Of a stretch of 14,284 nt of DNA, positions 1-12,862 are shown one piece after another. Origin of the DNA: Nitrospinota bacterium (GTDB lineage Bacteria > UBA8248 > JACPRG01); the NCBI GenBank assembly GCA_030740135.1, contig JASLXW010000045.1, forward strand, positions 1 through 14,284. Reading direction: 5' to 3'. A program made the position numbers and the translations under genes. Position 1 is the first letter of the stretch, and each line of letters starts with the position of its first letter. The notes beneath the pieces are model-generated. The model was not told the DNA's origin. It made no database searches and worked only from the letters and a program-made list of their open reading frames with translations.

Positions 1-234
1 GTTCGGAATGACAGCGCGCAAGGTCCGAATCTTGGCCAAAACACCAACCCATCGGAGTTTTTCCGCAACCTGCTAGAGGAGGAGGGGTGGCGGTTGGCAC
101 GGACGCGAGGCAGCCATCGACAGTACAAGCATTCGAACAAGCCAGGGACGGTGACCGTGGCTGGCAAGCCGAGCCTTGACGTGCCGCCCGGCACCCTAAA
201 CTCGATACTGGAGCAAGCTGGCCTTAAGAAGTGA
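1..234 (+). CDS. hicA: HicA-family mRNA interferase toxin (5' end not resolved)
   Basis: The reading frame is open from base 1 to the TGA at 232-234. It contains the HicA double-stranded-RNA-binding-like fold: an N-terminal helix (PSEFFRNLLEEEGW), then RTRGSHRQYKH with the catalytic His of the G-S-H motif, then the C-terminal PPGTLNSILEQAGL helix. HicA toxins cleave mRNA and are neutralised by HicB. The family is usually about 60 residues and would begin near residue 16 of this frame, but no ATG, GTG or TTG lies there in frame. The start is therefore upstream of the window, non-canonical, or disturbed. The stop abuts hicB, giving the classic hicA-hicB order. The family call is secure; the start and intactness are not. 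Confidence 0.85.
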   Translation, partial: VRNDSAQGPNLGQNTNPSEFFRNLLEEEGWRLARTRGSHRQYKHSNKPGTVTVAGKPSLDVPPGTLNSILEQAGLKK

Positions 235-242
235 GGCGCCCG

Positions 243-461
243 ATGATGCAGTACATGGTGGTAGTCGAACGAGGCGAGAAGAGCTGGGGCGCGCACGTCC
301 CGGACCTTCCGGGCTGCATTGCAGTTGGGGAGACCCGAGATGAAGTGCTGCAACTCATCCGTGAGGCAATCGAGTTTCACATCGCAGGACTCAGACAGGA
401 CGGTCTACCTGTCCCCCCGACAAGCTCAGAGGGAGAGTTCGTCGAGGTGGGGGCCGCCTAA
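243..461 (+). CDS. hicB: HicB-family antitoxin (short form)
   Basis: This encodes about 72 residues with the HicB N-terminal RNase-H-like fold: MQYMVVVERG, GAHVPDLPGCIAVGET, EAIEFHIAGL and DGLPVPPTS match the family core. HicB binds and blocks HicA and usually autoregulates the pair. This copy ends soon after the core and lacks the C-terminal ribbon-helix-helix or HTH domain of longer HicB proteins, so it may not bind DNA itself. I chose the ATG at 243 because GAGG at 233-236 gives a good ribosome binding site. A GTG at 231 would overlap the hicA stop, and the ATG at 246 (MQYMVV) is also possible. The gene is translationally linked to hicA. Confidence 0.88.
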   Translation: MMQYMVVVERGEKSWGAHVPDLPGCIAVGETRDEVLQLIREAIEFHIAGLRQDGLPVPPTSSEGEFVEVGAA

Positions 462-597
462 CCCCAGTATGACATCTCATGATTTATGCCGGAAGAGAAC
501 CCTTCTCGTGCGGGCCTGATACGACAATCGACAAAGAGATTGCGCTCTTATGCGACCAATATAACCAATGTTAGACCTCGGGATCGGCGCGTAGCAA

Positions 598-1293
598 ATG
601 GAGCGAGATAAGTCACCAGAACGGGTTCGCGAAGAGCACTTTCAGATTCTCGGCTCAGACCTGGGACCTCTCTACAACGCGCTTCAGCACGAAGTCACCT
701 GGCTTTACGCGAAGTGGCTTGAGTACCGGAAGCTTTACGCCAAATCACCAGAGCGGATCGACCTTTTGAACGAGATCGCCGCCTTCTTCTTCCGCGTCGT
801 GCAGGACGTGCTGTTGGAAGACATTTTGCTTCACCTAGCCAGATTAATCGATCCGCCCAAATCAGCGAACAAGCCCAATTTAACCATCGAGAGGCTACCA
901 GGACTTATCGCTGATCCAGCACTGGCTCAAGACGTTCGTAAGTTGGTCCAGAATGCAGCCAATCGTTGTTCTTTCGCGCGCGAGTGGCGGCACCGCCATC
1001 TGGCATATCGCGATCTCGACTTGGCGATGGGATCTCTCCAAGCTATCCCTCTTCCTAGCGTGAGCCGCCAGGCCGTTGGAGAAGCACTGGCTGCACTGGC
1101 CGCCGTACTGAATAGGCTGGAGAGACAGTATTTTGACAAGGAAGTTGGGTTCGAGCATTTCTTTGTCGTCAGCGATGCTGAAGCGCTCGTTCATCATCTG
1201 ACCGTGGCTGCCCGATACGACCGACATCAGCACAAGAGGCTCACCCAAGGCAAACTGTTGCCTGAAGATTTTGAACCGCCGCCTCAGACCTAA
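598..1293 (+). CDS. AbiU2-like HEPN domain protein, possible inactive RNase
   Basis: A 231-residue all-helical protein that I recognise as AbiU2/HEPN-like: WLYAKWLEYRKLYAKSPERI, FFFRVVQDVLLEDILLHLARLIDPP, and the core FAREWRHRHLAYRDLDLA. HEPN proteins are RNases or RNA-binding factors in toxin-antitoxin and abortive-infection systems and use an R-x4-6-H motif. In relatives I recall, the core reads R-N-x-x-x-A-H-R-D-L. Here the His is Tyr (codon TAT at about 1006-1008), although another Rx5H spacing (REWRHRH) overlaps it. No signal peptide or membrane segment is seen. The gene follows hicAB by about 136 bases and is monocistronic. It fits a small defence cluster, but its partner is not apparent. 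Confidence 0.7.
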   Translation: MERDKSPERVREEHFQILGSDLGPLYNALQHEVTWLYAKWLEYRKLYAKSPERIDLLNEIAAFFFRVVQDVLLEDILLHLARLIDPPKSANKPNLTIERLPGLIADPALAQDVRKLVQNAANRCSFAREWRHRHLAYRDLDLAMGSLQAIPLPSVSRQAVGEALAALAAVLNRLERQYFDKEVGFEHFFVVSDAEALVHHLTVAARYDRHQHKRLTQGKLLPEDFEPPPQT

Positions 1294-1631
1294 CCCCAAT
1301 GCGTCAAAAATTCATACCGAACTGTTCGCTCGCACGTTTCTGAAAGATTCGGTTGGCGCTGCGTACATCGTCCACGCGAGCGTCGTTCTCCGCCGCGTGA
1401 GGGTGGGCGGGCGGGTCCCCGTCCCCGCCCGGAAAAACGGCCGTTGCGTCCATCCGCCACATTCAGCCGAATCAGGCCGCCGGTGGCGATTCATTCGGAG
1501 CGCGAACCCCAAGACCATCGGTTGGTGAGAAATGCGGGCTAAAGTCCGCGGCCCTTCCCGCCGATAAGTTCGTGTGGATAGGTTGTTTTTCGTGATTCCG
1601 CTGATGGTTTCGCACCGGCGGAATTGAGTGA
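1294..1631. other. Intergenic region, no supported gene
   Basis: This stretch lies between the HEPN gene and the riboswitch. It holds a GC-rich inverted repeat (GGGCGGG 1409-1415 with CCCGCCC 1424-1430, followed by GGAAAAAC) that could end the HEPN transcript, although there is no U-tract. It also holds the dispersed motif at 1525-1538 and a small hairpin directly after it (GCGGGC...GTCCGC, about 1534-1549). The promoter of the riboswitch transcript should lie here, but I cannot name convincing -35/-10 boxes. Confidence 0.5.
1525..1538 (-). repeat. Dispersed intergenic motif copy 1 (minus orientation)
   Basis: GTGAGAAATGCGGG is the exact reverse complement of CCCGCATTTCTCAC found at 11970-11983. 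A related copy with ATTTCTCACAA occurs near 12815-12825. All copies are intergenic. This suggests a short genome-wide repeat of unknown role. Confidence 0.5.
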
Positions 1632-1734
1632 CCCTCGTTTCGATAAGGGCAAACCGGTCGTGAGGCCGGGACGCAGAGGCACGGGTCTGGGTTCGAAATC
1701 ATCCCCCAGACAGCCGGCCCGCCGAAGAATGAGG
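1632..1734 (+). ncRNA. Cyclic-di-GMP-I (GEMM) type riboswitch aptamer
   Basis: The hallmarks of the GEMM aptamer are present in order. GGGCAAACC lies at 1647-1655. A stem CCGGTC/GGCCGG (1654-1659 with 1664-1669) is capped by a GTGA GNRA tetraloop. GGGACGCA follows at 1668-1675. A second perfect 7-bp stem is formed by GTCTGGG (1685-1691) and CCCAGAC (1705-1711). The 3' segment AGCCGG...CCGAAG is then followed by a closing P1 helix of CCTCGTT (about 1633-1639) with AATGAGG (about 1728-1734, one G-U). The GGG triplet is intact, which favours c-di-GMP over the G-to-A variants that sense cyclic AMP-GMP, but this needs a covariance-model alignment. It lies 50 bases upstream of a ribosome binding site and a short ORF. 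Confidence 0.85.
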
Positions 1735-1779
1735 AGAGGGCCCATATTCCTCTCCGGCCACCGGATCCCAAAGGAGGAA
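1733..1779 (+). promoter_or_regulatory. Riboswitch expression platform: two competing hairpins over the RBS
   Basis: GGAGAGG (1733-1739) pairs perfectly with CCTCTCC (1749-1755). TTCCTC (1747-1752), overlapping that second arm, can instead pair with GAGGAA (1774-1779) inside the ribosome binding site. The first arm overlaps the 3' strand of aptamer helix P1. I infer that ligand binding would hold P1, free CCTCTCC and so allow the RBS to be masked (an OFF switch); the direction is not proven. Confidence 0.5.
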
Positions 1780-1786
1780 GGACCCA

Positions 1787-2005
1787 ATGAAGACACAGGC
1801 AAATCACTGGATCAGGACGCTCATTGCCCATATCAAGGTGAACCCGCGTCGGGACGGTCATTCGGCCGACCCGAAACCGCGATTTGAAGACCGGAAACCC
1901 ATCTTCTTTCCCCTCAGACCCTACGTGGACAGGAACGGAGGCGCTGTGGGGCGGTACAGAGAGATTCGGACGATTCAGTTCCTTCCGAAATTGGAAGGCG
2001 TCTGA
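1787..2005 (+). CDS. Hypothetical 72-residue protein under GEMM riboswitch control
   Basis: I do not recognise a family. The ATG is preceded by a near-perfect ribosome binding site (AAAGGAGGAAGG, GGAGG 9 bases from the ATG), which is the best evidence that it is translated. The product is basic and polar (MKTQANHWIRTLIAHIKVNP at the N-terminus, then many Arg, Pro and Phe), with no signal peptide, transmembrane segment, Cys motif or heme-binding motif. GEMM riboswitches usually control motility, pilus, extracellular-matrix or cytochrome genes, and this product resembles none of them. It could be a small effector, a leader peptide, or the remnant of a displaced larger gene. A strong inverted repeat ends the region at 2105-2138. 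Confidence 0.45.
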   Translation: MKTQANHWIRTLIAHIKVNPRRDGHSADPKPRFEDRKPIFFPLRPYVDRNGGAVGRYREIRTIQFLPKLEGV

Positions 2006-2104
2006 AGAGGAAACCGGTCGGGACCCAACATGCCGCGGCTCTACACCGGACTGACGCATCCCCGGCCATGAAAGCTCTGTCGCGAAATCTTTGCGGGAAA
2101 TCCA

Positions 2105-2138
2105 TCTGAGGCCGGGAAGGATCCTCCTCGGCCTCAGA
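2105..2138. terminator. Bidirectional terminator-like inverted repeat
   Basis: A 34-base near-perfect palindrome: TCTGAGGCCG pairs with CGGCCTCAGA, with further pairing inward around AGGATCCT. It lies between the convergent 72-residue ORF (plus) and merR (minus) and overlaps the merR stop codon. Neither side has a strong U-tract, so termination is inferred from position and stem strength. Confidence 0.6.
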
Positions 2139-2538
2139 AAGACTCGCTCAGGTTTTTCAGAATCGGGCACTCCGTCACGGGCAGCTCCCTCCGGCAGGCG
2201 TCGGCCAGCCTGCCCAACGATTTCCTCACGGCCCGCAGGGCCTTGATCTTCTCCTCGATTTCGGCCATCTTCCGCTCGGCCTGGAGGCGCACGTCGCCGC
2301 ACCGGGCCCGGGCGTCCGATCGCATGGCCAACAGTTCTTTGATCTCATCCAGGGAGAACCCGAGCCGCTGGGCGCGCTTGATGCTCCGGATGCGGCCGAC
2401 GGTCTCGGACGGATAGACCCGGTAAGCCCCCCGCCGGGTGGATGGCCGCTCGATCAGCCCCCTGCGCTCGTAGTAGCGAACCGTCTCGACGTTCACACCC
2501 GCCCCGCGGGCGACCTTTCCAATCGTCAGGGATTCCAT
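2134..2538 (-). CDS. merR: MerR, mercury-responsive transcriptional regulator
   Basis: A 134-residue MerR-family regulator. The N-terminal winged HTH reads LTIGKVARGAGVNVETVRYY with the RRGL and YRVYP signatures, followed by the dimerisation coiled coil (about 78-112). The Hg(II)-binding triad is present: Cys80, Cys115 and Cys124 (ARCGD, DACRRE, TECPIL). Their spacing is identical to C82, C117 and C126 of Tn501 MerR, so this is a mercury sensor rather than a generic family member. I chose the ATG at 2538 because GGAGG stands 5 bases upstream; an upstream in-frame ATG at 2574 is less likely. It is the last gene of the operon, 28 bases after the thioredoxin-like gene, and would be co-transcribed with what it regulates. 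Classical merR is usually divergent or first. Confidence 0.92.
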   Translation of the reverse strand: MESLTIGKVARGAGVNVETVRYYERRGLIERPSTRRGAYRVYPSETVGRIRSIKRAQRLGFSLDEIKELLAMRSDARARCGDVRLQAERKMAEIEEKIKALRAVRKSLGRLADACRRELPVTECPILKNLSESF

Positions 2539-2566
2539 AGGAACCTCCGGGCAATTCTTCATCGAT

Positions 2567-3184
2567 TCACGCACCTTCCTTCGTAGGATCGACGGCCTTG
2601 AGGGCCTCTTCCAGTGAAGACTGAGCCCTCTCCCTCATGACCTCGCCGATGCCGCCAACGTGCGACATGAAGGCCAGATCCCAAGCCATATGCGGATCCT
2701 CTCTTCCAAGGAGATTCATCAGCTCGTGTGAAAATCTACCCGGGTTCAAAAGAAGTTTCCCATCGGCGCCCGTCACTGGAGGAAGTTGGTGCATCCAGAA
2801 TGTGGGTTTGGGCGGCTCATCTGCATCCCAGGTGACACCCGGCGCGTAGAGCAAGTGAACATCCCACGCGACCCCTTTCAAATTGAGCAACTTTGCAAAG
2901 AGCCGGCCAAATTGTCCTTCGGAATCCCAACAGTGCTCCACCCGTTCATCCGGGAAACTCTCTGACGAGGCCCTCGCGGCATCCGCGTTGTCCCCGTCCA
3001 TGATGGGAAGCCATATTGAAAAGGCCTTGAGCGCATTCGCGTCGATTTCCTCGAAGAGCTTACGGACAACTCCATGCCCGTAGTGACATACCGGTCAGGT
3101 AGGAGAGAGGATTGTGAGAACTTTCACGGAATCGCGCGCCTGATTGAAATGCTCTCTGAGCTGAGGCAAATTTGAGGTTTCCAT
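2567..3184 (-). CDS. Predicted thioredoxin-like selenoprotein (UxxC), UGA at codon 30
   Basis: Reading the in-frame UGA at 3095-3097 as selenocysteine (U) gives one continuous 205-residue protein from the ATG at 3184 (RBS AGGAG, 7 bases upstream) to the TGA at 2567. The N-terminus is a thioredoxin-type beta-alpha unit: VKVLTILSPT-U-P-V-C-HYGHGVV, with U30 and Cys33 forming a UxxC redox pair. The rest (FEEIDANALKAFSIWLPI, ERVEHCWD, GVAWDVHLLYAPG, FWMHQLPPV) resembles a thioredoxin-fold family seen with a CxxC in other bacteria. A hairpin downstream of the UGA fits a bacterial SECIS. Conventional annotation would start at Met62 (3001) and lose the active site. Position between merF and merR suggests a role in reducing or binding mercury species. 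The exact family name is unknown to me. Confidence 0.85.
3061..3082 (-). promoter_or_regulatory. Bacterial SECIS-like hairpin of the thioredoxin-like gene
   Basis: In the mRNA, UACGGGC pairs with GUCCGUA (7 bp, one G-U), closing the loop AUGGAGUU. The apical GG lies 21 bases after the UGA, within the roughly 16-37 base range reported for bacterial SECIS elements, which bind SelB through a loop G. Confidence 0.7.
3095..3097 (-). other. In-frame UGA, predicted selenocysteine codon 30
   Basis: The UGA stands at the first position of the thioredoxin-type C-x-x-C (U-P-V-C). The frame is open for 29 codons before it and 175 after it. UGA is used as a normal stop in neighbouring genes (merR, merE, mfd), so general reassignment is unlikely. 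Confidence 0.85.
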
Positions 3185-3240
3185 TTGATATCTCCTAAAT
3201 GACCAGGCGCCCACGAAACCGGGTCACACTCCACTTTGAA

Positions 3241-3468
3241 TCAGGTCCCTTCGCGGTGATCGGATGGCTTCTTCCTCAGCCGGATGAGGGCATATACCGT
3301 AATTCCGGCAAATATCACAAGCGCGGGCCAAAGCACGTAATCCAGCCAACCGACCCAGGCCGATAGACCCATCGCCCCGAACAGCAGGACGAGGGCGGGC
3401 GTGAAACAGCAAATCGCGGCAATGACCGTCCCCGCGCCTCCCGTGCGAAGCAGCTTTCTATCTTCCAT
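3241..3468 (-). CDS. merF: MerF-like mercuric ion transporter
   Basis: A 75-residue protein with two membrane helices. Helix one carries the vicinal cysteine pair (IAAICCFTPALVLLFGAMGL, Cys20-Cys21), matching the Cys21-Cys22 pair of MerF that accepts Hg(II). The WLDYVLWPALVIFAGITVYAL segment is the MerF second helix. MerF moves Hg(II) through the inner membrane into the cytoplasm. The C-terminus (RLRKKPSDHREGT) lacks the second Cys-Cys pair present near the end of classical MerF, so cytosolic hand-off may be done by another protein such as the selenoproteins alongside. I chose the ATG at 3468 because the alignment with MerF starts there and AGGGGG lies 10 bases upstream; an ATG at 3477 is possible. 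It follows merE by 34 bases. Confidence 0.87.
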   Translation of the reverse strand: MEDRKLLRTGGAGTVIAAICCFTPALVLLFGAMGLSAWVGWLDYVLWPALVIFAGITVYALIRLRKKPSDHREGT

Positions 3469-3502
3469 ACTGTCCATGCCCCCTGTTCAACGTCCAGGCG
3501 AA

Positions 3503-3787
3503 TCACCGCGAGAGGGATGAGGCGGCGGATGGGTCCCGCCGTGAGGCGGATTCGGTTCTTTGCATTCTTTTCCCCGACAAGCGCAAACCCAGAATGAGCG
3601 CCGCGAGGAACGCGAGGGCCAGGACGGTCCCGGCGGTGTACGCGTTCTCGGAGAGCAGCGCCCCTGCCGCCGTGCCGCCCAACAGGGCCAAGTAGATGGG
3701 CAGGTGGCAGGGGCACAGAAAGAAGGCCGCGCCCAGCATGAATTTTCCCGTGATCGACCTTTGCGGCTTCAACCCGCCGTCCCTCAC
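3503..3787 (-). CDS. merE: MerE-like broad-spectrum mercury transporter
   Basis: A 94-residue membrane protein with the MerE signature: GKFMLGAAFFLCPCHLPI, with the C-P-C pair at residues 25 and 27 in the first helix, then LALLGGTAAGALL and a second helix (YTAGTVLALAFLAALILGL). MerE is known to transport both Hg(II) and methylmercury across the inner membrane. The start is taken as GTG at 3787, whose GTGA overlaps the stop of the upstream zinc-ribbon gene, a typical translational coupling. An ATG at 3817 would overlap that gene by 34 bases. The C-terminal tail (KRMQRTESASRRDPSAASSLSR) is longer than in classical MerE and polar. Confidence 0.82.
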   Translation of the reverse strand: MRDGGLKPQRSITGKFMLGAAFFLCPCHLPIYLALLGGTAAGALLSENAYTAGTVLALAFLAALILGLRLSGKRMQRTESASRRDPSAASSLSR

Positions 3788-4128
3788 GCTTTGCCCGCGT
3801 CCGTCGCCGGAACACAACCGGGCCTTTGGCCGCCGGCGAGCTCCAGCGAGAAAGCGCCGAACTCCTTCGTCAGTGTAAATTCCGCTCCCCCGTGACGAAT
3901 GACGGTCCCCTCGGGCGTGTCATCGTCCACCGGGATTGTTTCCTCGCAGAAAGGGCAGGACACGAGCTGAACGATCCTGAGCGCGTCCCGGCCGCCCTGT
4001 CCGGTGAGCCGGAACAGGACGCCCGCGCAGTTCTCGCATTCGATGAGGTCGCCCCCCTTCGCGTCCCACGGGACGGGAATGTCCATGCCTCAGCCGGGAC
4101 ACCGAAGAAGCCGGCCGGAAGGATTCAT
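3784..4128 (-). CDS. Predicted zinc-ribbon-like selenoprotein (CxxU), UGA at codon 13
   Basis: From the ATG at 4128, which overlaps the upstream stop as TGATG, the frame runs through an in-frame UGA at 4090-4092 to the TGA at 3784: 114 residues. The N-terminus reads MNPSGRLLRCPG-U-GMDIPV. Cys10/U13 and Cys31/Cys34 (ECENC) form a four-ligand ribbon, and a third pair is C58-P-F-C61. The protein is an internal duplication: CPGUGMDIPVPWDAKGGDLI aligns with CPFCEETIPVDDDTPEGTVI, putting U13 opposite Cys61. This is strong internal evidence that the UGA replaces a cysteine codon. A SECIS-like hairpin follows. Conventional annotation would begin at Met15 and lose CPGU. I do not know the family; a mercury-binding or hand-off role is inferred from context only. 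Confidence 0.82.
4058..4079 (-). promoter_or_regulatory. Bacterial SECIS-like hairpin of the zinc-ribbon gene
   Basis: In the mRNA, UUC-C-CGUCC pairs with GGACG-C-GAA (3 bp, one C-C mismatch, 5 bp) around the loop CGUG. The loop G is 20 bases after the UGA, consistent with bacterial SECIS geometry. The stem is shorter than in the other two genes. Confidence 0.55.
4090..4092 (-). other. In-frame UGA, predicted selenocysteine codon 13
   Basis: The codon lies in C-P-G-U and aligns with the second Cys of C-P-F-C in the protein's own second repeat. The ATG 12 codons upstream overlaps the preceding stop codon, as expected for a coupled operon gene. Confidence 0.8.
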
Positions 4129-4370
4129 CATTTGAGTCCGAGAAGGTTGGAGATCTTACGCCGGTCGAATCCGACCACTGTCTCATCGCCAATCAGAAGG
4201 ACAGGCGTCGCGCGGCGTCCCGTTTTTTCCACAAGGGCGTCAAGCGCCGCGGGATCCCGGTCGATGAGGTGTTCCCGGTAGGGAACGCCGTGATGTGAAA
4301 GAAACTCTTTCACGCCTCTGCAAGGCGCTCACGTGCTCGATGTGTATAGGGTAACCTCTTTCTGTTCCAT
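4128..4370 (-). CDS. Predicted glutaredoxin-like selenoprotein (UxxC), UGA at codon 14
   Basis: This is the first gene of the operon. From the ATG at 4370 the frame passes an in-frame UGA at 4329-4331 and ends at the TGA at 4128: 80 residues, the normal size for a NrdH/glutaredoxin-type protein. It reads MEQKEVTLYTSST-U-APC-RGVKEFLSHHGV, then YREHLIDRDPAALDALVEKTGRRATPVLLIGDETVVGFDRRK. It therefore has the beta strand, a UxxC active site (U14, Cys17), the cis-Pro TPV loop and the GFD C-terminal motif. Without recoding only a headless fragment from the GTG at 4313 would be called. GAGG just upstream serves as the ribosome binding site. A 7-bp SECIS-like hairpin follows. Likely role: thiol/selenol redox partner or mercury ligand. 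Confidence 0.88.
4295..4313 (-). promoter_or_regulatory. Bacterial SECIS-like hairpin of the glutaredoxin-like gene
   Basis: In the mRNA, GUGAAAG pairs perfectly with CUUUCAC around the loop AGUUU. The loop G lies 23 bases after the UGA. This is the cleanest of the three SECIS candidates. A second small hairpin (CGCCU/AGGCG) lies between the UGA and this one. Confidence 0.72.
4329..4331 (-). other. In-frame UGA, predicted selenocysteine codon 14
   Basis: The UGA occupies the first position of the glutaredoxin C-x-x-C site (U-A-P-C), preceded by a canonical beta strand (VTLYTSST) and followed by the canonical helix (RGVKEFLSHHG) in the same frame. Confidence 0.87.
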
Positions 4371-4400
4371 TATCCTCAACCCCCAGGGGAGAAGGCGTGT

Positions 4401-4412
4401 CGCCGATCGGCG
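4401..4412. promoter_or_regulatory. Perfect 12-base palindrome in the operon leader
   Basis: CGCCGATCGGCG is a perfect palindrome in the untranslated leader between the -10 box and the first start codon of the minus-strand operon. It could be a second operator; no protein can be assigned. Confidence 0.35.
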
Positions 4413-4433
4413 GTGGTCAAAGGCTGATTGTCA

Positions 4434-4464
4434 AGATAATCCCCGGAGTCGGATACGGAGTCAA
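4434..4464 (-). promoter_or_regulatory. MerR-type promoter/operator of the mer-selenoprotein operon
   Basis: On the minus strand, TTGACT (4464-4459) and TTATCT (4439-4434) are separated by 19 bases, the stretched spacer typical of MerR-controlled promoters. The first 11 bases, TTGACTCCGTA, are identical to the Tn501 mer promoter as I remember it. The right half of the dyad is degenerate (TCCGGGG rather than TACGGAG), leaving a CCG...CGG core. The repeat CGGAGTC also occurs twice in direct orientation (4444-4450, 4456-4462). The leader from here to the first start codon is about 60 bases. Confidence 0.65.
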
Positions 4465-4712
4465 CGGATTTTTGGAAGGTCCACCATTCACAGCCCCGGA
4501 AATCCAAAATGTAAAATTTACGTTGATTTTTCGGGAGGGATTGAAGTGTGGGGCCGGAGGTGCAATATGAATTAAGTGATTATTTTATTGGACATTCCTT
4601 TCGCGAGTGTAGTACATTTTCCCTTGTAGGAAGAGGGTTGCGGGATTGTCGGGGGATCTGCCTGCCCGTTGGGGCGTCAAGTCTCCTTTCGGGCGAATGG
4701 GAAGGTGGATGG
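4465..4712. other. Divergent intergenic region upstream of rodZ
   Basis: This region separates the minus-strand mer operon from rodZ. It is locally AT-rich (GTAAAATTTAC at 4511-4521 is a near-palindrome) and should carry the rodZ promoter. A weak candidate is TTGGAC near 4588 with a TAGTAC/TACATT -10 about 16-19 bases later. The frame of rodZ is open back to 4548, but this segment (CSTFSLVGRGLRDCRG) does not look like RodZ and is taken as untranslated. Confidence 0.4.
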
Positions 4713-6149
4713 ATGAGTGACATTGATGAGCATCTGAATTCTCAATCCGACATGCGCGGTCAGAACAGCCAATCGCCGGACGAGACCCCGGAGGAGACCT
4801 CGGCCGATGCTTCGGGCGAGGCCTATTCGACTCGGATTCCGCCTGATTTGACGGTCTATGAAGTCTCCGATGAGGATCCGGGGAAGTTGGACGATGAGTC
4901 TCCCGGCAATCTGTTCGGTCAGGTGGAGGACGCGTCTTCCCTGGATTCACAGGGCAATCTGTTCGGTCAGGTGGAGGACGCGTCTTCCCTGGATTCACAG
5001 ACGGAAGAAGCGCCGGATGAGCCTTCGCCCCTCCCCGCCGAGGAAGCCGATTCAACCCCCCATGAATCGCTGGGCGAATACCTGCGGCGGCATCGGGAAG
5101 CGGCGGGCATCACCATCGATCAGTTGGCTTCCACCACCAAGATCAAAGGGCGGATCATTTCGGCCCTTGAAGAGGACCAATATGAAGACACCCCGCATGC
5201 ACCCATCGTTCGGGGGTTCCTGAAGATCCTGGCGTCGGAAATCGGTCTCAGTGCGGACGACCTCCTTTCCCGGTTCCATCCCCCCGCCCTGAAAAAAAGG
5301 GAAGACGGGGAGTTAATCTTCCTGGAATGGAGCGCCCAGCTCATGGGGTCCCGGCGGGCCCTGCGCTCGCGGGTTCCCGCTGCGGCATTGTTCCTTCTGG
5401 TGTTGGGCGCGGGATATTTTTTCTATGTCGAAGGGTCGAAGCTCGGGTCGGATCAGGGGATCCGGCCCCCGGCGAAGAAGGCCCTGGGCGCCGTCCCCCG
5501 AAAGGCGCGACGTCCGGTCGCTCCGAAGGTGGTGAACCCGCCCGGACCGAAGGGCGCCAAATCCAAAGACGCCGCGGAGATCAACCGGCCGAAAACGGAC
5601 CGAAATCCGAAGGCCTCCGAAACCGAAACCGCCATGAAGGTCAACAAGCCGAAAGCGGACCGGAACCCGAAAACCGCCGAGGCCCGGCCCGAGAAGAAGA
5701 ACGGGATCCTCCCCCCTTCCGCCGCGCCCCCGGGGGGAGGCCGGCCGACGCCTGTGGCGGCGGAGGCGATCCCGAAACCCGGTTCCCCGCCCTCTCTGGA
5801 CGCGAGAGCGGCCTCGGCGGGCGTGGCCGTAACCGAAAAGGTTGTGGACAACTCCAAGGTGAAAGTCACCCTCAAGAAAAAAACCGCCCCGTCGAAGTCG
5901 CCTCTGGTTCTGAATATCACGGCCAAGGGGGACACTTGGCTGCGCGTGATTGTGGACGGAAATCAACGGGATGAGATCTTCCTGCTGGAAGGGGAGAGCC
6001 GGCGCTGGAGCGGGAACAAGACGTTTGTCCTGACCATCGGGACCGCCACCAGCACTGTCGTGGAGCTCAACGGATCGTCCATTCCACTTCCCAAGACGGA
6101 GAGCAATCTCGTCCGGGATTTTTTGATCAGCAAGAACGACCTGCTGTAG
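4713..6149 (+). CDS. rodZ: RodZ-like cytoskeletal/cell-shape protein with HTH and DUF4115
   Basis: About 478 residues. The acidic, low-complexity N-terminus (1-115) contains a perfect tandem duplication (GNLFGQVEDASSLDSQ twice). A RodZ-type HTH follows (about 118-190: SLGEYLRRHREAAGITIDQLA, IVRGFLKILASEIGL), then one membrane helix (about 222-242, AALFLLVLGAGYFFYV). A long basic, Pro-rich linker carries repeated INRPKTDRNPK / VNKPKADRNPK units. The C-terminus (about 398-478: LVLNITAKGDTWLRVIVDG) is the periplasmic DUF4115-type beta domain. RodZ links MreB to the cell-wall elongation machinery. I chose the ATG at 4713 because GGAAGG lies upstream and coding character begins there. RodZ is usually around 300-350 residues; the excess is the N-terminal extension and linker. 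aroE starts 11 bases later. Confidence 0.83.
   Translation: MSDIDEHLNSQSDMRGQNSQSPDETPEETSADASGEAYSTRIPPDLTVYEVSDEDPGKLDDESPGNLFGQVEDASSLDSQGNLFGQVEDASSLDSQTEEAPDEPSPLPAEEADSTPHESLGEYLRRHREAAGITIDQLASTTKIKGRIISALEEDQYEDTPHAPIVRGFLKILASEIGLSADDLLSRFHPPALKKREDGELIFLEWSAQLMGSRRALRSRVPAAALFLLVLGAGYFFYVEGSKLGSDQGIRPPAKKALGAVPRKARRPVAPKVVNPPGPKGAKSKDAAEINRPKTDRNPKASETETAMKVNKPKADRNPKTAEARPEKKNGILPPSAAPPGGGRPTPVAAEAIPKPGSPPSLDARAASAGVAVTEKVVDNSKVKVTLKKKTAPSKSPLVLNITAKGDTWLRVIVDGNQRDEIFLLEGESRRWSGNKTFVLTIGTATSTVVELNGSSIPLPKTESNLVRDFLISKNDLL
4905..5000 (+). repeat. Perfect 48-bp tandem duplication inside rodZ
   Basis: Two identical 48-base units (4905-4952 and 4953-5000) encode GNLFGQVEDASSLDSQ twice, in frame. 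Their identity at DNA level points to a recent duplication that could vary in copy number. Confidence 0.95.
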
Positions 6150-6160
6150 CCTTCTCACCG

Positions 6161-7045
6161 ATGCCATCCGTGGAGCGCGCCCTGGGGGTGATGGGTTTCC
6201 CTTTGGGGCATTCCCTTTCGCCGTTGATGTTCGATACGGCGCTGGCGGAATTGAGCCTTCCCTACCGGTTTTTGGCCTTCGAGGTTCCCCCCGAGCGTTT
6301 GGGCGATGCCTTCCTCGGGATTCGCGCGCTGGGAATCCATGGGGTCGCCCTCACCATTCCGCACAAGGAAGCGGTCGTCGGCCACCTGGACGAGCTGACC
6401 GAGCCCGCCCGCCGCATCGGCGCGGTGAACCTGGTCTTCCGGGAGGGCGATCGACTCGTCGGCCACAACACCGACGGCGCCGGTTTCGTCCGCTCTCTAC
6501 GGGAGGAGGCGGACCTGGATCCCCGCGGAGGGCGTTTCCTCCTCCTGGGGGCGGGGGGCGCGGCCCGGGGGATCGCCTCGGAGCTGGCCGCCCAAGGGGC
6601 GCGCGCGCTGGTCATTGCCAACCGCACCCTTTCCCGGGCGGAAACCCTGGCCGGGTGGGTCCGAAAGACATTCGATTCCGTCGACGTCCAGGCCGTCCCG
6701 CTGAGGGGCGGGGAGGCGGAGCGCGCCGCGACAATGGCGGACGCCGTCATCCAATGCACCTCCCTCGGCTTGATCGGGCGGGACGGGGAGGCGGAAGGGA
6801 CGTCGCCCCTCGACCCGGGCTGTCTGCGCCCCGGCCAGGTGGTGGTGGACATTGTCTATCGGCCCCTGGAAACCCCGTTTCTTCGGGCCGCCGGCGACCG
6901 GGGGGCAAAAACGGTGGGCGGGCTCGGAATGCTCGTTTTTCAGGGGGCGGAAAACTTCCGGATCTGGACCGGTGCGGAGCTTCCGGTCGAGAAGGTCCGA
7001 AAAGAGATGGAAGCGGCCCTCCTGGGCGAAGGAGGGAAAGGATGA
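6161..7045 (+). CDS. aroE: Shikimate dehydrogenase
   Basis: 294 residues. This NADP-dependent enzyme reduces 3-dehydroshikimate to shikimate in the aromatic amino-acid pathway. Substrate-binding domain motifs: GHSLSP (16-21), TIPHKE with the catalytic Lys69, and NTDG (103-106) with the catalytic Asp105. NADP-binding Rossmann motif: LLGAGGAARGIASEL (about 129-143), then IANRT. The C-terminal signature is VDIVYRPLETPFL...GGLGMLVFQGAENFRIWTG. The usual N-V-T before the Lys loop reads A-L-T here, a mild substitution. The ATG at 6161 is 11 bases after the rodZ stop. The stop overlaps the mfd start (ATGA), so the genes are co-transcribed and coupled. Confidence 0.95.
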   Translation: MPSVERALGVMGFPLGHSLSPLMFDTALAELSLPYRFLAFEVPPERLGDAFLGIRALGIHGVALTIPHKEAVVGHLDELTEPARRIGAVNLVFREGDRLVGHNTDGAGFVRSLREEADLDPRGGRFLLLGAGGAARGIASELAAQGARALVIANRTLSRAETLAGWVRKTFDSVDVQAVPLRGGEAERAATMADAVIQCTSLGLIGRDGEAEGTSPLDPGCLRPGQVVVDIVYRPLETPFLRAAGDRGAKTVGGLGMLVFQGAENFRIWTGAELPVEKVRKEMEAALLGEGGKG

Positions 7046-10000
7046 AGGCCCCGTCCGAATCCTCCCGGGCGTCCCGTCTGTCCGAGTGGACCCGGTTTCC
7101 TTCCGGCGCCTCCCGACTGTGCGTCAGCGGCACGACCGACGCGGCCCGCGCGCTTTACCTGACGGCCCTTGTGCGCGAGAGGCGTCGGGCCGGCGCCGGG
7201 TGCGGTATTGTGGCCGTGACCCCGACCGGGGACGCCGCCCTCCGTCTTTACGAGGACCTCCGTTTTTTCGAGGACCGCGCCGGACCCCCCGTTCTCATCT
7301 TCCCCCCCTGGGATCTGGCGCCGCTCGAGCCGCTCTCCCCCAGCCCCAAAACCGTCGGCGCGCGGCTCACCGCCCTTTCGGCCTGGTCGGCGGGAGAGCC
7401 CTGCCTGACGGTGACCTCGATCTCCGCCCTGGCGCAAAAACTGATCCCCCCCCAGGCGATCCTCTCTGCCGCGCTCGACCTGGAGCGGGGCGATCCCCTG
7501 GAGCGGGACGAGCTGTTGGAAGACCTCTTGCGCGCGGGGTATCACCGAAGTCCGGTGGTGGAGGATGAGGGGGAATACGCGGTTCGCGGATCGCTGGTGG
7601 ACGTGTATTCGCCCCAGTCGGAGTTCCCCGTCCGGATCGAGTTCGACGAGGACGGCGTCTTCTCCCTGCGCCGTTTCCAGGTCGGCGATCAGCGCTCGGT
7701 CGAGCGGCTGGAGCGGGCCCGAATCATGCCCGCCCGGGAGATCATCCTCGACGAAGAAGCCCGAACGCGCGCGGCCGGGAAGCTGCGGGATTGGGCCGGC
7801 GCCGGGGAAGCGGGCGAACGGGACCGGTTTGAGCTTCTGGCCGACCGGTTGTTGGAGGATGGATACTTCCCGGGGTTTGAAACCCTGGCGCCGCTGTTTC
7901 GGGACGACCTGATCGCCGCCGTGGAGGCCCTGCCGCCCGACGCCCTGGTCGCCCTGTCCGAGCCGGACGCCATGCCGGAGGCGGACGAAGCGCGCTGGGA
8001 AGGGCTCTCGGAGGCTGCGGACGCCGGGCGCGCGGCGGCCCCGTTCCCCCTCGAGGATTTCTCGCTCCCGCCGGGAGCGGTGCTCGGCGCCCTGACGGCG
8101 CGGGCCGCGCCGGACTCACCCGTGATCGATCTTCCCTCCCTCGGCTTGGGAACGGGTGAAGGCCGGGACGGCGAACCGCACCTCCATCTCAACGCGGGAC
8201 GCCCCGGCTCCTTTCAGGGTCAGGTTCCGGCGTTCGTGCGCCAACTGAAGATTTGGCTGGCCAAAGGACTCCGGGTGGCGATTGTGGCCGTCCACCGGAC
8301 GCAGGCCGTGAGGCTCCAGCAGATCCTGCGGGAGTTCGAGCTGGGGGCCTCCATCCTGGAGGGCCCCGACGCCGCCGGCTGGTTTTCCTCCGAATCCGGA
8401 GAGCCGGAGGCGGCCCTCCTGGTCGGCCGGCTCTCCGAAAGCTTCCAGAGCGAGGACCTGGATTGCGTCGCGATTCGCGAGGAGGAGATCTTTTACACGC
8501 CCGTGCGCCGGAGGGCGGCCCCGCCTCTCCGAAGAAGGGCTTTCGAGGCGGCCTTCCGCGAGCTCCAGGCCGGAGACTACGTCGTTCACCGGGATTACGG
8601 AATCGGCGTCTATCAGGGCGTGGACCGGATCGGTCTGGCCGGGGCGGAGCAGGAGTTCCTGGTGATCGAGTACCAGGGCGGAGACAAGCTCTTTGTCCCC
8701 ATGGAGAACCTGAACCTCGTCGAAAAATACATGGGCGCCGGCCAGGGAAAGCCGAGGATTGATCGGTTGGGGGGGGGGGCGTGGGCCAAGACGAAGAAAA
8801 AAACCCAGGCCGCCGTCCTGGCCATGGCCCAGGGGCTCATGGAGCTGGCGGCGCGGCGCCAGGTCGCCGAGGGATTCACATTCTCTCCCGATGATCACTG
8901 GACCCGGGAGTTCTCGGCTTCCTTTCCGTTCGAGGAGACCCCCGATCAGCTCCAGGCCATTCAGGAAGTGATCGCGGACATGGAAAAATCGCGTCCGATG
9001 GATCGGTTGATCTGCGGAGACGTGGGGTACGGAAAGACGGAAGTGGCCATTCGGGCGGCCTTCAAGAGCGTGATGGACAAAAAGCAGGTTTGCGTCCTGG
9101 CGCCGACGACCGTCCTGGCCGAGCAGCACCGGGCCACCTTTCAGGAGCGGTTGGCCGATTACCCGGTGTCTGTCGAATGCCTGACCCGGTTTCGGAGCCG
9201 GGCCGAGCAGAAAGACGTTCTCGAGCGCCTGGCCGCCGGGCAAGTGGACATCCTCATCGGGACGCACCGGGTGCTCCAGTCCGACGTCAAGTTTCGGGAC
9301 CTGGGCCTGATCGTCGTGGATGAAGAGCAGCGCTTCGGCGTGGCCCACAAGGAGAAGCTCAAGGGTCTCCAGGCGTCCGTGGACCTGTTGACGCTGACGG
9401 CGACGCCCATTCCCCGGACCCTCCAGATGGGCCTTTTGGGAATCCGGGACCTGAGCGTCATCGACACCCCGCCCCCCGACCGGCTGGCCGTTCGCACCTA
9501 CGTTTGTCCGTTCGAGGACCGCGTTATCCGGGAGGCCCTGACCCGGGAGCGGGATCGGGGGGGGCAGGTGTTCTTCGTCCATCCGCGCGTGGAAACCATC
9601 GACGCCACGGCCCGATATCTCCACCGTTTGATCCCGGGGTTGCGCTTGGCGATCGCCCACGGCCAGATGCGGGAGAAACAACTCCACGAGGCCATGGTGG
9701 GATTCCTGAATCGAAAGCTCGACGTCCTGCTCTGCACGACGATCATCGAGAACGGCCTGGACATCTCCAATGCCAACACCATCATCATCAACCGGGCCGA
9801 GATGTACGGCCTCGCCCAGCTCTACCAGCTCCGGGGGCGCGTCGGGCGGTCGGACCGGCAGGCGTTCGCGTACTTTCTGGTGCAGGCGGGGCGGAGCCTC
9901 ACCCCGACGGCCCGGAGCAGACTGAAGGCGTTGGAAGAGCTGAGCGAGCTGGGCGCCGGCCTTCGTCTGGCCGCCCGAGACCTCGAGATCCGGGGAGCGG

Positions 10001-10581
10001 GCAACATCATCGGGGCCGAGCAGTCGGGCCACATCGCGGCCGTCGGATTCGATCTTTATTGCCGGCTGCTGGAAGAGGCGGTCGAGGGGTTGAAGGGAGA
10101 GCGGGCCGTCCGGCGAATCGAGCCCGAGTTGTCCTTGGGTGTGCGGCCTTCCTTTCCGGAGGACTACGTGCCGGGGCAGAATCAGCGCCTGGAGCTCTAC
10201 CGCGAGATCGCCGACACGCAGACCACCGGCGAGCTCGAGGCGCTCCGGCGCGCCCTGGCCGATCGCTTCGGCGCCCTGCCCCCCGCCGCCGAATCCCTGT
10301 TCGAGACCGCCCGGTTGCGCATCCTCGCCACCCGGGCCGGCGTGGAGAAGCTCACCGTCGCGAATGGATGGGCCACATTTCATCCGGAGGATCGGCCCTA
10401 TGAGTTGACGCCGGAATTCCTGGCCACCCCCGGACTCAAGTTCCTCGACCCGAGGACATTCCGGGTTCCCATGCCGCCGGAGGAGTCGGAACGCAGGGAA
10501 ACGCTGGAAAGGGTGTTGATCGCGCTGGAAGCCTGCGCTACGATCTCCGATCAACCGGGAGAGGATTTTCGGATCGAATGA
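7042..10581 (+). CDS. mfd: Transcription-repair coupling factor Mfd
   Basis: 1179 residues, slightly longer than typical Mfd (about 1150). Mfd is an ATP-dependent translocase that removes RNA polymerase stalled at DNA lesions and recruits UvrA. Visible in order: the UvrB-homology N-terminal module (FFPPWDLAPLEPLSPSP-like region at about 90-105; VRGSLVDVYSPQSEFPVRIE), the RNA-polymerase-interacting Tudor-like domain (GDYVVHRDYGIGVYQGVD; FVPMENLNLVEKYMG), then the RecG-like motor. The motor has Walker A GDVGYGKTEVA near residue 659, DEEQ at about 760, LTATPIPRTLQMGL, and QLYQLRGRVGRSD at about 925-937. The C-terminal D7 autoinhibitory domain ends the protein. The ATG at 7042 overlaps the aroE stop; the frame is open further upstream inside aroE but that part is not Mfd. 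Confidence 0.97.
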   Translation: MKAPSESSRASRLSEWTRFPSGASRLCVSGTTDAARALYLTALVRERRRAGAGCGIVAVTPTGDAALRLYEDLRFFEDRAGPPVLIFPPWDLAPLEPLSPSPKTVGARLTALSAWSAGEPCLTVTSISALAQKLIPPQAILSAALDLERGDPLERDELLEDLLRAGYHRSPVVEDEGEYAVRGSLVDVYSPQSEFPVRIEFDEDGVFSLRRFQVGDQRSVERLERARIMPAREIILDEEARTRAAGKLRDWAGAGEAGERDRFELLADRLLEDGYFPGFETLAPLFRDDLIAAVEALPPDALVALSEPDAMPEADEARWEGLSEAADAGRAAAPFPLEDFSLPPGAVLGALTARAAPDSPVIDLPSLGLGTGEGRDGEPHLHLNAGRPGSFQGQVPAFVRQLKIWLAKGLRVAIVAVHRTQAVRLQQILREFELGASILEGPDAAGWFSSESGEPEAALLVGRLSESFQSEDLDCVAIREEEIFYTPVRRRAAPPLRRRAFEAAFRELQAGDYVVHRDYGIGVYQGVDRIGLAGAEQEFLVIEYQGGDKLFVPMENLNLVEKYMGAGQGKPRIDRLGGGAWAKTKKKTQAAVLAMAQGLMELAARRQVAEGFTFSPDDHWTREFSASFPFEETPDQLQAIQEVIADMEKSRPMDRLICGDVGYGKTEVAIRAAFKSVMDKKQVCVLAPTTVLAEQHRATFQERLADYPVSVECLTRFRSRAEQKDVLERLAAGQVDILIGTHRVLQSDVKFRDLGLIVVDEEQRFGVAHKEKLKGLQASVDLLTLTATPIPRTLQMGLLGIRDLSVIDTPPPDRLAVRTYVCPFEDRVIREALTRERDRGGQVFFVHPRVETIDATARYLHRLIPGLRLAIAHGQMREKQLHEAMVGFLNRKLDVLLCTTIIENGLDISNANTIIINRAEMYGLAQLYQLRGRVGRSDRQAFAYFLVQAGRSLTPTARSRLKALEELSELGAGLRLAARDLEIRGAGNIIGAEQSGHIAAVGFDLYCRLLEEAVEGLKGERAVRRIEPELSLGVRPSFPEDYVPGQNQRLELYREIADTQTTGELEALRRALADRFGALPPAAESLFETARLRILATRAGVEKLTVANGWATFHPEDRPYELTPEFLATPGLKFLDPRTFRVPMPPEESERRETLERVLIALEACATISDQPGEDFRIE

Positions 10582-10665
10582 TGGAATTCTGCCGGAAAGA
10601 GCGTCTTTCAGGCGAGGGACCCTCCGACTGCCGGGTCGGATTCGGGACTCGGAAGGACCACTGAG

Positions 10666-11661
10666 ATGATCGGTCTGTCGTCCGTTTTGCGGGTAGTGGG
10701 ATTCGGGAGCTTGATGGCCTTTGCGGCGGCGGGGGGACTTCGCGCCCCTTCCGCCCGGGCGGTCGTGATCGACCGGATCGTCGCCGTCGTCAACAAGGAC
10801 ATCATCACGCTGAGCCAGGTCCAGGAGGCGGGCAGGGGCGAGTTCTCACAACTCCAACAGCGTTACAACGGCCGCCGGCTGAAACGGGAAATCGAGCGGG
10901 TGCAGCGGAAATACCTGGATCTTCTCATCACGCGCCGTCTCCGGGTCAACCGCGCCAAGGAGATGGAGCTTTCCTTCACCGATGCCGAGGTTGATCGGGC
11001 GCTGGAGGACGTGAAGAAGCGGAACAACATCTCCGACAGCGAACTCGAGGTGCTCCTGAAACGGGAGGGGATGACGATCCCGGAATACCGGGAGCGCGTC
11101 GGGGAGGAAATCCTGCTGCGAAAGGTCATGAACATCGAGGTCCGGTCCCGGGTCAGCGTCACCCCGCGGGAAATCAAAGCCTATTACAAGAGCCACCGGT
11201 CAGAGTTTCTGCCTCCCGAGCGGATCCGCGCTGGCCACATCCTTTTTCTGGCCCCCATCAACGCCGGCCAGGACATCGAGCGGGTGAAACGAACGGCCGC
11301 CGAACGGGTGTTGCGCGGGATCCGCAAAGGCGCCGGCTTTTCGGAAATGGCCAAACGGCATTCCCAGGACCCGTCGGCCGCGCGGGGCGGCGACTTGGGG
11401 ATCATCCTCAGGGGCGAAGTGCTTCCGAACTTCGAGCGGGTGCTGTTCGCCATGAAGGAGGGAGAGGTGTCCGACGTGGTGCGGACGCGGGCCGGGTTCC
11501 ACATCATCAAGCTGGTCAGGCGGCTTCCCCGAATCCCCCCTCCGCTCAGTCAGGTGGAAAAGAAGATCCGCAACCGGATCTTCCAGGAAAAGGTCACGGC
11601 CCGGATGCGCCGCTGGATGGAAGAATTGAAGAAAAAGGCGTATATCGAGGTCACGATGTGA
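10666..11661 (+). CDS. surA: SurA-like periplasmic peptidyl-prolyl cis-trans isomerase
   Basis: 331 residues. An N-terminal signal peptide (about 1-32: VVGFGSLMAFAAAGGLRAPSARA) precedes the SurA N-terminal domain (IDRIVAVVNKDIITLSQVQE, 35-54; then helices to about 165). A single parvulin/PpiC domain follows at about 186-287 (IRAGHILFLAP, FSEMAKRHSQDPSAARGGDLG, RTRAGFHIIKLV). SurA-type proteins chaperone outer-membrane proteins, so an outer membrane is implied. Classical enterobacterial SurA has two PpiC domains; this has one, as is common outside gammaproteobacteria. It follows mfd after 84 bases and has GGAAGG upstream of the ATG. The next gene overlaps its stop by 4 bases. Confidence 0.88.
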   Translation: MIGLSSVLRVVGFGSLMAFAAAGGLRAPSARAVVIDRIVAVVNKDIITLSQVQEAGRGEFSQLQQRYNGRRLKREIERVQRKYLDLLITRRLRVNRAKEMELSFTDAEVDRALEDVKKRNNISDSELEVLLKREGMTIPEYRERVGEEILLRKVMNIEVRSRVSVTPREIKAYYKSHRSEFLPPERIRAGHILFLAPINAGQDIERVKRTAAERVLRGIRKGAGFSEMAKRHSQDPSAARGGDLGIILRGEVLPNFERVLFAMKEGEVSDVVRTRAGFHIIKLVRRLPRIPPPLSQVEKKIRNRIFQEKVTARMRRWMEELKKKAYIEVTM

Positions 11662-11969
11662 CGCCCTCCCGTGAGGGAGCCCGGCGCCCGGAAAACCCGG
11701 GCGTCCGCCTGGATGTCTTTCTCAAAATCGCCGGAATCCTCAAGCGCCGTTCTCTGGCCCAAAGCTTCTGCGAGGCCGGGGCCGTAACGGTCAACGGGCA
11801 TCCCGCCAAATCGGGCAGGCTGATTCACGCGGGGGACCGCGTCCGGATCGATACCTGGAACCGGCGGCTCGTCGTTTTGGTCCGGTCGCTCCCCGGGAAG
11901 GGTCCGAGGCGGGGGGAGCGGTGCTACGAGGTCATCGAAGAGGGAAGAAAGCCTTCCCCGAATGGTTAA
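11658..11969 (+). CDS. S4-domain RNA-binding protein, HslR/YabR-like
   Basis: 103 residues starting at a GTG whose GTGA overlaps the surA-like stop. The S4 RNA-binding fold occupies about residues 15-75: VRLDVFLKIAGILKRRSLAQSFCEAGAVTVNGHPAKSGRLIHAGDRVRID, with the typical R-L-D-x-x-L opening and the V-T-V-N-G loop. Relatives such as HslR (Hsp15) bind the 50S subunit carrying a stalled nascent chain and help ribosome rescue. The short basic C-terminal tail is consistent with that. The coupling with a periplasmic chaperone gene is conserved in many Gram-negative genomes as I recall, but functional linkage is uncertain. Confidence 0.83.
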   Translation: MTPSREGARRPENPGVRLDVFLKIAGILKRRSLAQSFCEAGAVTVNGHPAKSGRLIHAGDRVRIDTWNRRLVVLVRSLPGKGPRRGERCYEVIEEGRKPSPNG

Positions 11970-11983
11970 CCCGCATTTCTCAC
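11970..11983 (+). repeat. Dispersed intergenic motif copy 2
   Basis: CCCGCATTTCTCAC begins one base after the stop of the S4 gene. It is the exact inverse of the copy at 1525-1538, and its extension CAAAGG resembles CAAGG at 12821-12827. Confidence 0.5.
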
Positions 11984-12134
11984 AAAGGGAATTTTCAATC
12001 TCGGATGGGCCGGTAAACTGGTTGCCTTTCAATCCATTGCCCGATGCGAGTGAGTTGCCTGGCTGGAACGCCCCGTTCTCCGCGCGGGCGTGTGACGGGC
12101 CGGTCCCTGTACCGACTCGAGGATTCTCTGGGAA

Positions 12135-12168
12135 AGTTTTGCGGGGGGGTTCCCAACCCCTGTGACGG
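12135..12168. repeat. Small GC-rich inverted repeat
   Basis: GGGGTT-CCC-AACCCC forms a perfect 6-bp stem. It lies between the convergent S4 and RidA genes, next to the stronger hairpin at 12171-12203, and probably forms part of the same termination region. Confidence 0.4.
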
Positions 12169-12170
12169 GG

Positions 12171-12203: not shown

Positions 12204-12215
12204 ATCTTCTTCGCC

Positions 12216-12827: not shown

Positions 12828-12862
12828 AGAAGTGTAGCGCGGAGAGGGTCGCAAACCCTAAG

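Follow-up and report, generated by a model that had tools for sequence, protein, structure and literature searches.

Three predicted selenoproteins in a MerR/MerE/MerF operon, one from an unnamed thioredoxin-like family with links to mercury genes

We analyzed contig JASLXW010000045.1 of a Nitrospinota bacterium (assembly GCA_030740135.1, positions 1 to 14,284; we will call this whole stretch of 14,284 nucleotides the window). It carries an operon with merR-, merE-, and merF-like genes and three further genes, for a thioredoxin-like protein (Trx), a glutaredoxin-like protein (Grx), and a LysW-like zinc ribbon, each with an in-frame UGA that is predicted to encode selenocysteine (Sec, or U in motifs). 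We propose that this is a mercury-responsive operon: MerR would induce the import of Hg by MerE and MerF, and the UxxC selenoproteins would then capture and relay the metal. We put the probability of this reading at roughly 60%. The Trx domain belongs to a widespread family of apparent selenoproteins that has no name so far, and it is repeatedly associated with mer genes, both as neighbors and in fusions. The genes, the match between UGA and cysteine, the hairpins of the Trx family that resemble selenocysteine insertion sequences (SECIS), the presence of SelB in the genomes of Trx relatives, and the mer links and fusions were all computed here.

The six genes are co-directional on the minus strand and run from 4370 down to 2134, in the order Grx, double zinc ribbon, MerE-like, MerF, Trx, MerR (Table 1). 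The Grx stop overlaps the zinc-ribbon start (ATGA), and the zinc-ribbon stop overlaps the GTG start of the MerE-like gene (GTGA). Gaps of 25 and 56 nucleotides (nt) separate MerE from MerF and MerF from Trx, and the possible starts of MerR are either overlapped by the Trx stop or lie 4 nt past it. The promoter-like element has a 19-bp spacer, which is typical of MerR-family promoters. (The pattern used to search for this element was copied from the site itself, so its expected count is not a test.) An earlier note on this DNA, made from the sequence alone, had described six minus-strand genes with tight or overlapping spacing behind a mer-type promoter, and all of these are present as described. 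Its claim that three of the genes have a single in-frame UGA at a cysteine position was also borne out, at the DNA level for Trx and by protein homologs for Grx and the zinc ribbon. All six genes have TGA as their terminal stop. We had considered a general reassignment of UGA as an explanation, and we ruled it out on these grounds.

Table 1. Features of the operon in the window (U, predicted Sec; p values are against synonymous-codon shuffles).
Feature	Position	Strand	Remark
Promoter-like element, TTGACT-19 bp-TTATCT, MerR-regulated type	4464-4434	-	Upstream of Grx gene; exact site in sequence
Grx-like predicted selenoprotein gene (TUAPC)	4128..4370	-	PF00462
Grx UGA, codon 14, predicted Sec	4331-4329	-	Cys in 4/6 longer homologs
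Grx SECIS-like hairpin, 8 bp, loop GUU 24-26 nt after UGA	4295..4313	-	p 0.017
LysW-like double zinc ribbon, predicted U at zinc-ligand position (CPGUG)	3784..4131	-	PF21344, two stretches
Zinc-ribbon UGA, codon 14, predicted Sec	4092-4090	-	Cys in 18/31 homologs
Zinc-ribbon weak SECIS-like hairpin, loop CGUG 20-23 nt after UGA	4062..4075	-	p 0.35
MerE-like membrane transporter (FLCPCHLPIYL)	3503..3787	-	GTG start; PF05052 over gathering
MerF mercury transporter (AICCFTP)	3241..3477	-	NF033565, PF11431
Trx-like predicted selenoprotein, SPTUxxC family	2567..3184	-	Thioredoxin fold, AlphaFold pLDDT 87.9
Trx UGA, codon 30 (SPTUPVC), predicted Sec	3097-3095	-	TGA 39, Cys 11 of 50 family genes
Trx SECIS-like hairpin, 8 bp, loop UGGAGU 21-26 nt after UGA	3061..3082	-	p 0.003
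MerR-family regulator	2134..2574, possible starts 2574, 2562, 2538	-	Cysteines aligned with the three Hg ligands of MerR

The Trx protein matches no Pfam family, and its only NCBIfam match is a chance-level one to thioredoxin (E = 0.21). Its AlphaFold model does match thioredoxin-like structures, and the nearest solved folds are ResA, DsbE, and DipZ. By eye, it has no signal-like N-terminus. We assembled a family profile, A2, from 49 rows. No thioredoxin-type curated model scored above its cut-off for the 49 members of A2, or for diverse TGA members, of which 10 were compared to NCBIfam and 6 to Pfam; the HMA and MerT portions of fusion proteins in the family do match curated models. With the seed genomes included, A2 matched 10 of 400 genomes from the phylum of locus L001 (Chloroflexi), 33 of 247 from the phylum of L002 (Acidobacteria), and 2 of 247 from the phylum of L004. 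The Trx relatives that have names are an archaeon of the Geothermarchaeales and a bacterium of the Dehalococcoidia. Sequence and profile searches of viral contigs found no Trx, and neither did a search of 72,556 plasmid records.

At the DNA level, the active-site codon in question is TGA in 39 of 50 Trx genes and encodes cysteine in the other 11. These 50 genes comprise 35 of the 38 places in the phylum of L002 (those in genomes G794, G857, and G882 were left out of the active-site counts), all 11 from the phylum of L001, both from the phylum of L004, the gene in L003, and the one in the window.

We scored a hairpin if it had at least 4 bp and its loop began 17-27 nt after the UGA, and we compared its strength to that in synonymous-codon shuffles (300 for each window gene). 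By this test, which was devised after we had the free-energy output (and so is partly post hoc) and which was applied to sequences that are not independent, all 39 TGA genes of the Trx family have the hairpin (mean z = -2.37, median p = 0.043). Just 3 of the 11 Cys genes have it (mean z = +0.19). The difference in strength between TGA and Cys genes is significant if relatedness is not corrected for (Mann-Whitney p = 6e-7). In the two nearest relatives of the window gene, L001 and L053, the stem is at the same place (p = 0.056 and p = 0.066). Across 38 distinct TGA sequences, 77% of the cells of one stem register can pair, versus 35-58% if the register is slid, 59% in shuffled columns, and 42% in Cys genes. 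A second register, in the remaining 12 sequences, also stood out (75% versus 35-54%). The earlier note had placed a hairpin after each of the three UGA codons of the window: those of Grx and Trx are stronger than in the shuffles, while the one in the zinc-ribbon gene is there but does not go beyond chance.

The genomes that contain the TGA form of Trx also encode SelB. We found a SelB match (E of 1e-60 or better) in all 33 of these genomes, and 32 of the matches were above the curated cut-off. Within the phylum of L002, SelB was above the cut-off in 23 of 24 genomes with the TGA form, versus 133 of 214 genomes with no Trx match (p = 0.0003). The Trx UGA and its hairpin are thus present in further lineages with SelB in their genomes, which supports the earlier note, and selenocysteine is a well-supported prediction for the Trx codon. 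We also tried the tRNA-Sec model of Rfam (RF01852) as a discriminator. It matched 14 of 14 control genomes (5 above the cut-off), so we dropped it.

The Trx family includes some unusual members. The gene at L074:353 (minus strand) has two in-frame UGA codons in its active site (SPTUPKU). At about position 6500 of L023, a Trx gene with the usual UGA also has a later in-frame TAG, which could indicate a decaying copy or a sequence error. In the phylum of L002, 14 Trx-like genes whose products appear to be secreted (several loci of L058-L078; 11 TGA and 3 Cys) form a clade that lacks mer neighbors. On an archaeal contig (L003:6197-8073), a Cys-form Trx lies between genes that resemble, by eye, an arsenite methyltransferase and an arsenate reductase.

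The Grx protein matches PF00462 at 57.1 bits, which is above the gathering score. Most of its homologs (64 of 70) were called as proteins of 46-68 amino acids. We aligned 24 of the 70, comprising 18 short homologs and 6 longer ones. All 18 short homologs begin 1-6 codons behind the UGA column, and four of the six longer ones (73-83 amino acids) have cysteine in that column (P0130, P0135, P0149, and P0151). This evidence is supporting but indirect for the prediction that the Grx UGA encodes Sec.

The zinc-ribbon protein scores 36.9 against LysW in Pfam (PF21344, gathering score 27), and its match to LysW in NCBIfam is below the cut-off. By sequence, LysW (3vpb) is the one solved structure listed as a relative, and among the fold matches it alone comes near significance (E = 0.0044). 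Among 31 homologs, the UGA column has cysteine in 18; in 10, the protein is called only from a methionine right behind the column; and in 3 the column is not shown. These 10 Met-started proteins consist of the entry for the window itself plus nine that are 67-87% identical to it, and starting there is what a UGA in that column would cause. One homolog, P0052, is 84% identical and has CPGC in place of CPGU. The prediction of Sec in the zinc ribbon rests on this correspondence of Cys and UGA, as its hairpin is no better than chance. A search of viral contigs with the zinc-ribbon profile found nothing. Contigs of 27,990, 21,207, 8,675, 1,547, and 679 bases, from the same sources, are in the match lists of both Grx and the zinc ribbon. 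The two largest are named Tectomicrobia and Nitrospinota; the metagenome-assembled genomes with these names have the nearest named relatives of Grx and the zinc ribbon, and the window's host is perhaps related to them. As these contigs agree in both size and source, the two genes seem to be neighbors elsewhere too.

Could the UGA codons instead be true stops, in pseudogenes or because of sequencing errors, or could they be read as sense in a different genetic code? The extra TAG in L023 suggests that some copies of the Trx family may be decaying, and one Grx homolog has tryptophan in the UGA column. But 38 other genes have the UGA of Trx in the same column, along with hairpins, and their genomes have SelB; for the whole Trx family this explanation is hardly tenable. 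The zinc-ribbon and Grx entries of the window represent 19 and 4 contigs, respectively. Three independent errors at cysteine codons would be improbable. Also, as noted above, all six genes stop at TGA. Overall, we consider true stops or another code to be highly improbable.

The neighbors of the MerR-like regulator link the window to mercury. MerF is clear-cut: it scores 95.3 against NF033565 (cut-off 50), and it is above the gathering score of PF11431. The MerE-like protein is above the gathering score of PF05052 (34.3 versus 22.8) and below the cut-off of NF010310 (41.7 versus 80). The best solved relatives of the regulator are MerR proteins (5crl and 4ua1). The three cysteines that serve them as Hg ligands align with cysteines of the window protein.

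Relatives of Trx from other genomes are also associated with mer genes. We used tblastn (E up to 1e-3) to search within 4 kb of the Trx codon in 48 fetched loci. There was a match to MerA, MerT, MerE, or HMA in 14 of the 48 (9 TGA and 5 Cys; 13 without L030), a count that has no random-locus control and for which L022 and L002 had themselves supplied some of the query sequences. The weakest of these loci are L030 (MerA-like, 32%), L059 (HMA and MerR-family only), and L075 (HMA, with a 30% MerA-like match). In four loci, a MerA above the curated cut-off lies within about 1.5 kb of Trx (the TGA forms of L022 and L028 and the Cys forms of L024 and L057), which suggests that Trx may act with MerA there; the earlier note had proposed that selenocysteine proteins act in place of MerP and MerA. 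For instance, L022 encodes a MerR-family regulator (the best model is CueR, below the cut-off), Trx(U), MerA, MerE, an unknown protein, and a second Trx(U), in that order. L057 encodes a MerR-family protein, a MerT-Trx(C) fusion, and MerA. MerT-Trx fusions are found in P0041 as well as L057, both in the Cys form. A MerP-like HMA domain is fused before Trx in P0045/L002 (Cys) and in L055 (TGA), and after Trx in L085 (TGA).

In L053, a MerR-family gene comes after Trx(U), which is also their order in the window, and there are convergent genes of the MerT-like (below the cut-off), MerP-like, and CopZ types. The MerP-like HMA protein (6092-6547, minus strand), which is convergent to Trx(U)-MerR, itself has an in-frame UGA at the first cysteine of its GMTCxxC motif (GMTUGAC). 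L053 and L001 have the two Trx genes that are nearest to the window's in the tree, and L001 has no mer match. We also built a quick tree of the 49 rows, in which the mer-linked Trx genes and the rest do not split into clades of their own (10 changes with hand-set labels, versus a mean of 13.1 for shuffled labels; 20 of 500 shuffles were as low). These neighbors (MerA, MerT, MerP-like, MerE, and MerR-family) and the fusions to MerT and HMA are independent of the window, and they agree with the mercury setting that the earlier note had read from it. A MerR-family gene that is 53% identical to the window's MerR is found at L079:3154-3558 (minus strand), 3.3 kb from a Trx(U).

We propose the following mechanism. 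MerR would sense Hg(II) and switch on the promoter ahead of the Grx gene. MerE and MerF would then carry Hg(II), and perhaps organomercury as well, across the inner membrane into the cytoplasm. There, the metal would be received by three small and apparently cytoplasmic selenoproteins (Trx with UPVC, Grx with UAPC, and the zinc ribbon with CPGU) on selenolate/thiolate pairs, and relayed. Selenolate holds Hg more tightly than thiolate does. The Trx protein would do what classical operons leave to MerP or to the HMA domain at the N-terminus of MerA, and the Grx and zinc-ribbon proteins would lengthen the relay or act as a buffer. The relay could end at a MerA encoded elsewhere, or in sequestration; MerA may lie elsewhere in the window's host. 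That Hg is the ligand of the selenoproteins, as well as the direction and end point of the relay, is what we infer.

Several results weigh against this proposal. First, on reading the open reading frames (ORFs) of the window, we saw no MerA, MerB, or MerP, and the regulator is below the cut-off of its best NCBIfam model (TIGR02051, 131.9 versus 150.85). Beyond the window, there is no match to a mer transporter, a reductase, or HMA within 4 kb in 34 of the 48 Trx loci, so the family is wider than mercury and not confined to it. The zinc-ribbon profile had just one marginal match in 46 genomes that contain Trx. As for selenocysteine, two of the six longer Grx homologs lack cysteine at the UGA column: P0096 has tryptophan, and P0109 has isoleucine in a poorly-aligned N-terminus. 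The hairpin of the zinc-ribbon gene is weak (Table 1). A cruder control that preceded the hairpin test, in which the 42 nt downstream of each UGA were compared to synonymous shuffles by minimum free energy, showed no excess in the window genes (z = -0.38 and -0.11, and +1.21 for the zinc ribbon) and no excess for 34 TGA relatives of Trx relative to 11 Cys relatives. Stem pairs that changed on both sides numbered 7, versus 3-7 in slid registers, which is no excess. A third register, in the same remaining 12 sequences as the second, did not stand out (56% versus 26-63%). SelB was also present in 7 of the 10 genomes with only the Cys form of Trx, so the contrast with TGA genomes is modest (p = 0.03), and SelB is common in the phylum of L002 generally (above the cut-off in 164 of 247 genomes). 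When we scored 150 of 353 tRNA-Sec candidates from four genomes, the only one above the gathering score was from G002, which has the Cys form; G001, which has the TGA form, reached 45.4 of the required 47. Finally, Sec insertion in the window's host, and with it the presence of SelA, SelB, SelC, and SelD, is inferred.

The main rival to mercury capture and relay is redox repair: the Trx and Grx selenoproteins would act as thiol-disulfide oxidoreductases to repair proteins that mercury or oxidants have damaged, and they would not carry mercury. The folds nearest to Trx are those of reductases, and Grx belongs to the glutaredoxin superfamily. Also, the loci without mer matches, a number of which encode proteins with signal-like N-termini (by eye), are as expected of a general thiol enzyme. 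On the other hand, the fusions of Trx to the metal-carrying MerT and MerP-like HMA domains speak against redox repair, and Sec in place of a zinc-ribbon ligand has no obvious redox role. We consider this rival to be possible but doubtful. A MerA-free route, with import of Hg(II) or methylmercury by MerE and MerF and a cytoplasmic relay of the three selenoproteins that demethylates it or fixes a Se-Hg product, seems unlikely to us.

Another alternative is organomercury or organometal chemistry, with selenols that help to cleave or trans-alkylate R-Hg. This would be a Sec-based replacement for MerB, functionally like the SAO operon. The lack of a visible MerA or MerB among the ORFs and the presence of a MerE-like importer are consistent with this, and the SAO operon as described in the parts of PMC13188914 that we examined provides a precedent for multi-selenoprotein organometal operons. 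That operon and the window's both have several selenoproteins, including a thioredoxin-like one, in a single putative metal operon. But the window has MerR, MerE, and MerF, while SAO has an ABC transporter and the MerB-like SaoL. The earlier note had raised possible membership in the Sao families; when we scanned the six proteins against NCBIfam at E up to 1, no Sao model (SaoL, SaoB, SaoC, SaoP, SaoT, or SaoX) was listed for any of them, and we rejected membership on that result. Also, the relatives of Trx lie beside MerA, MerT, and MerP-like genes, which are genes for inorganic Hg(II). We view organomercury chemistry as quite improbable, and we favor capture and relay of imported Hg.

The window's operon shares several features with classical mer operons: a regulator that has the three Hg cysteines of MerR, a promoter spaced as in the MerR type, and the importers MerF and MerE. 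It differs in having the three UGA genes, in having MerR last on the same strand, and in that no MerA or MerP was seen. The UXX-star and YruB families of glutaredoxin-like (seleno)proteins are the best two NCBIfam models for the window's Grx, which is below both cut-offs (TIGR02196 or YruB, 74.9 versus 88.55; NF041212 or UXX-star, 47.0 versus 66) and has the motif UAPC. The zinc ribbon shares its fold with the LysW/ArgW carriers, and its CPGU aligns with CPxC of LysW. Unlike them, it has two tandem ribbons, a mer-operon setting, and a predicted Sec at one zinc ligand, and nothing suggests a carrier role. FmdB is a zinc ribbon as well.

The FmdB-family UxxU row of PMC13188914, in the part we saw, is a precedent for a Sec-containing zinc ribbon. 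Within the examined parts of PMC13188914 and the GOS paper, Sec is already known from MerT, HMA, MerP-like, and Grx-like proteins, and the multi-selenoprotein operons SAO and Tso are described. In particular, the MerT/CopZ (NF045683), UxxU metal-binding (NF041115), and PF02411 putative mercuric transport selenoproteins (Table 1 of PMC13188914; GOS paper; both in part) share with the window the use of Sec in handling mercury or heavy metals. Those proteins are of the MerT or HMA type, while the window's are thioredoxin-like, glutaredoxin-like, and zinc-ribbon proteins. In the examined parts of PMC13188914, neither a LysW-like selenoprotein of the zinc-ribbon type nor a selenoprotein operon with MerR, MerE, and MerF is named. 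Some of the rows there for thioredoxin-like proteins lack an NCBIfam model, so they may include the Trx family by a different name. As far as the libraries and literature that we examined show, three things are new: the broad thioredoxin-like SPTUxxC family with mer links, the LysW-like zinc ribbon with predicted Sec at a ligand position, and the MerR/MerE/MerF operon with three predicted selenoproteins.

Mercury is bound more tightly by selenium than by sulfur, yet the best-known proteins for its detoxification rely on cysteine. If a UxxC Trx family is indeed linked and fused to mer genes, then bacteria would be applying selenium chemistry to mercury by design, and a testable answer to the role of Sec in mer operons would follow. 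Annotators would gain a large family of selenoproteins; at present, its genes are often called too short, from behind the UGA.

Elsewhere in the window, there is a c-di-GMP-I-GGC riboswitch on the plus strand at 1639-1727 (66.3 bits; gathering score 59). Two small adjacent ORFs on the plus strand at 1-461 look, by eye, like a HicA/HicB toxin-antitoxin pair. Finally, a direct repeat of ~48 bp is present in two copies at about 4905-5000, inside a divergent helix-turn-helix gene (RodZ-like by eye).

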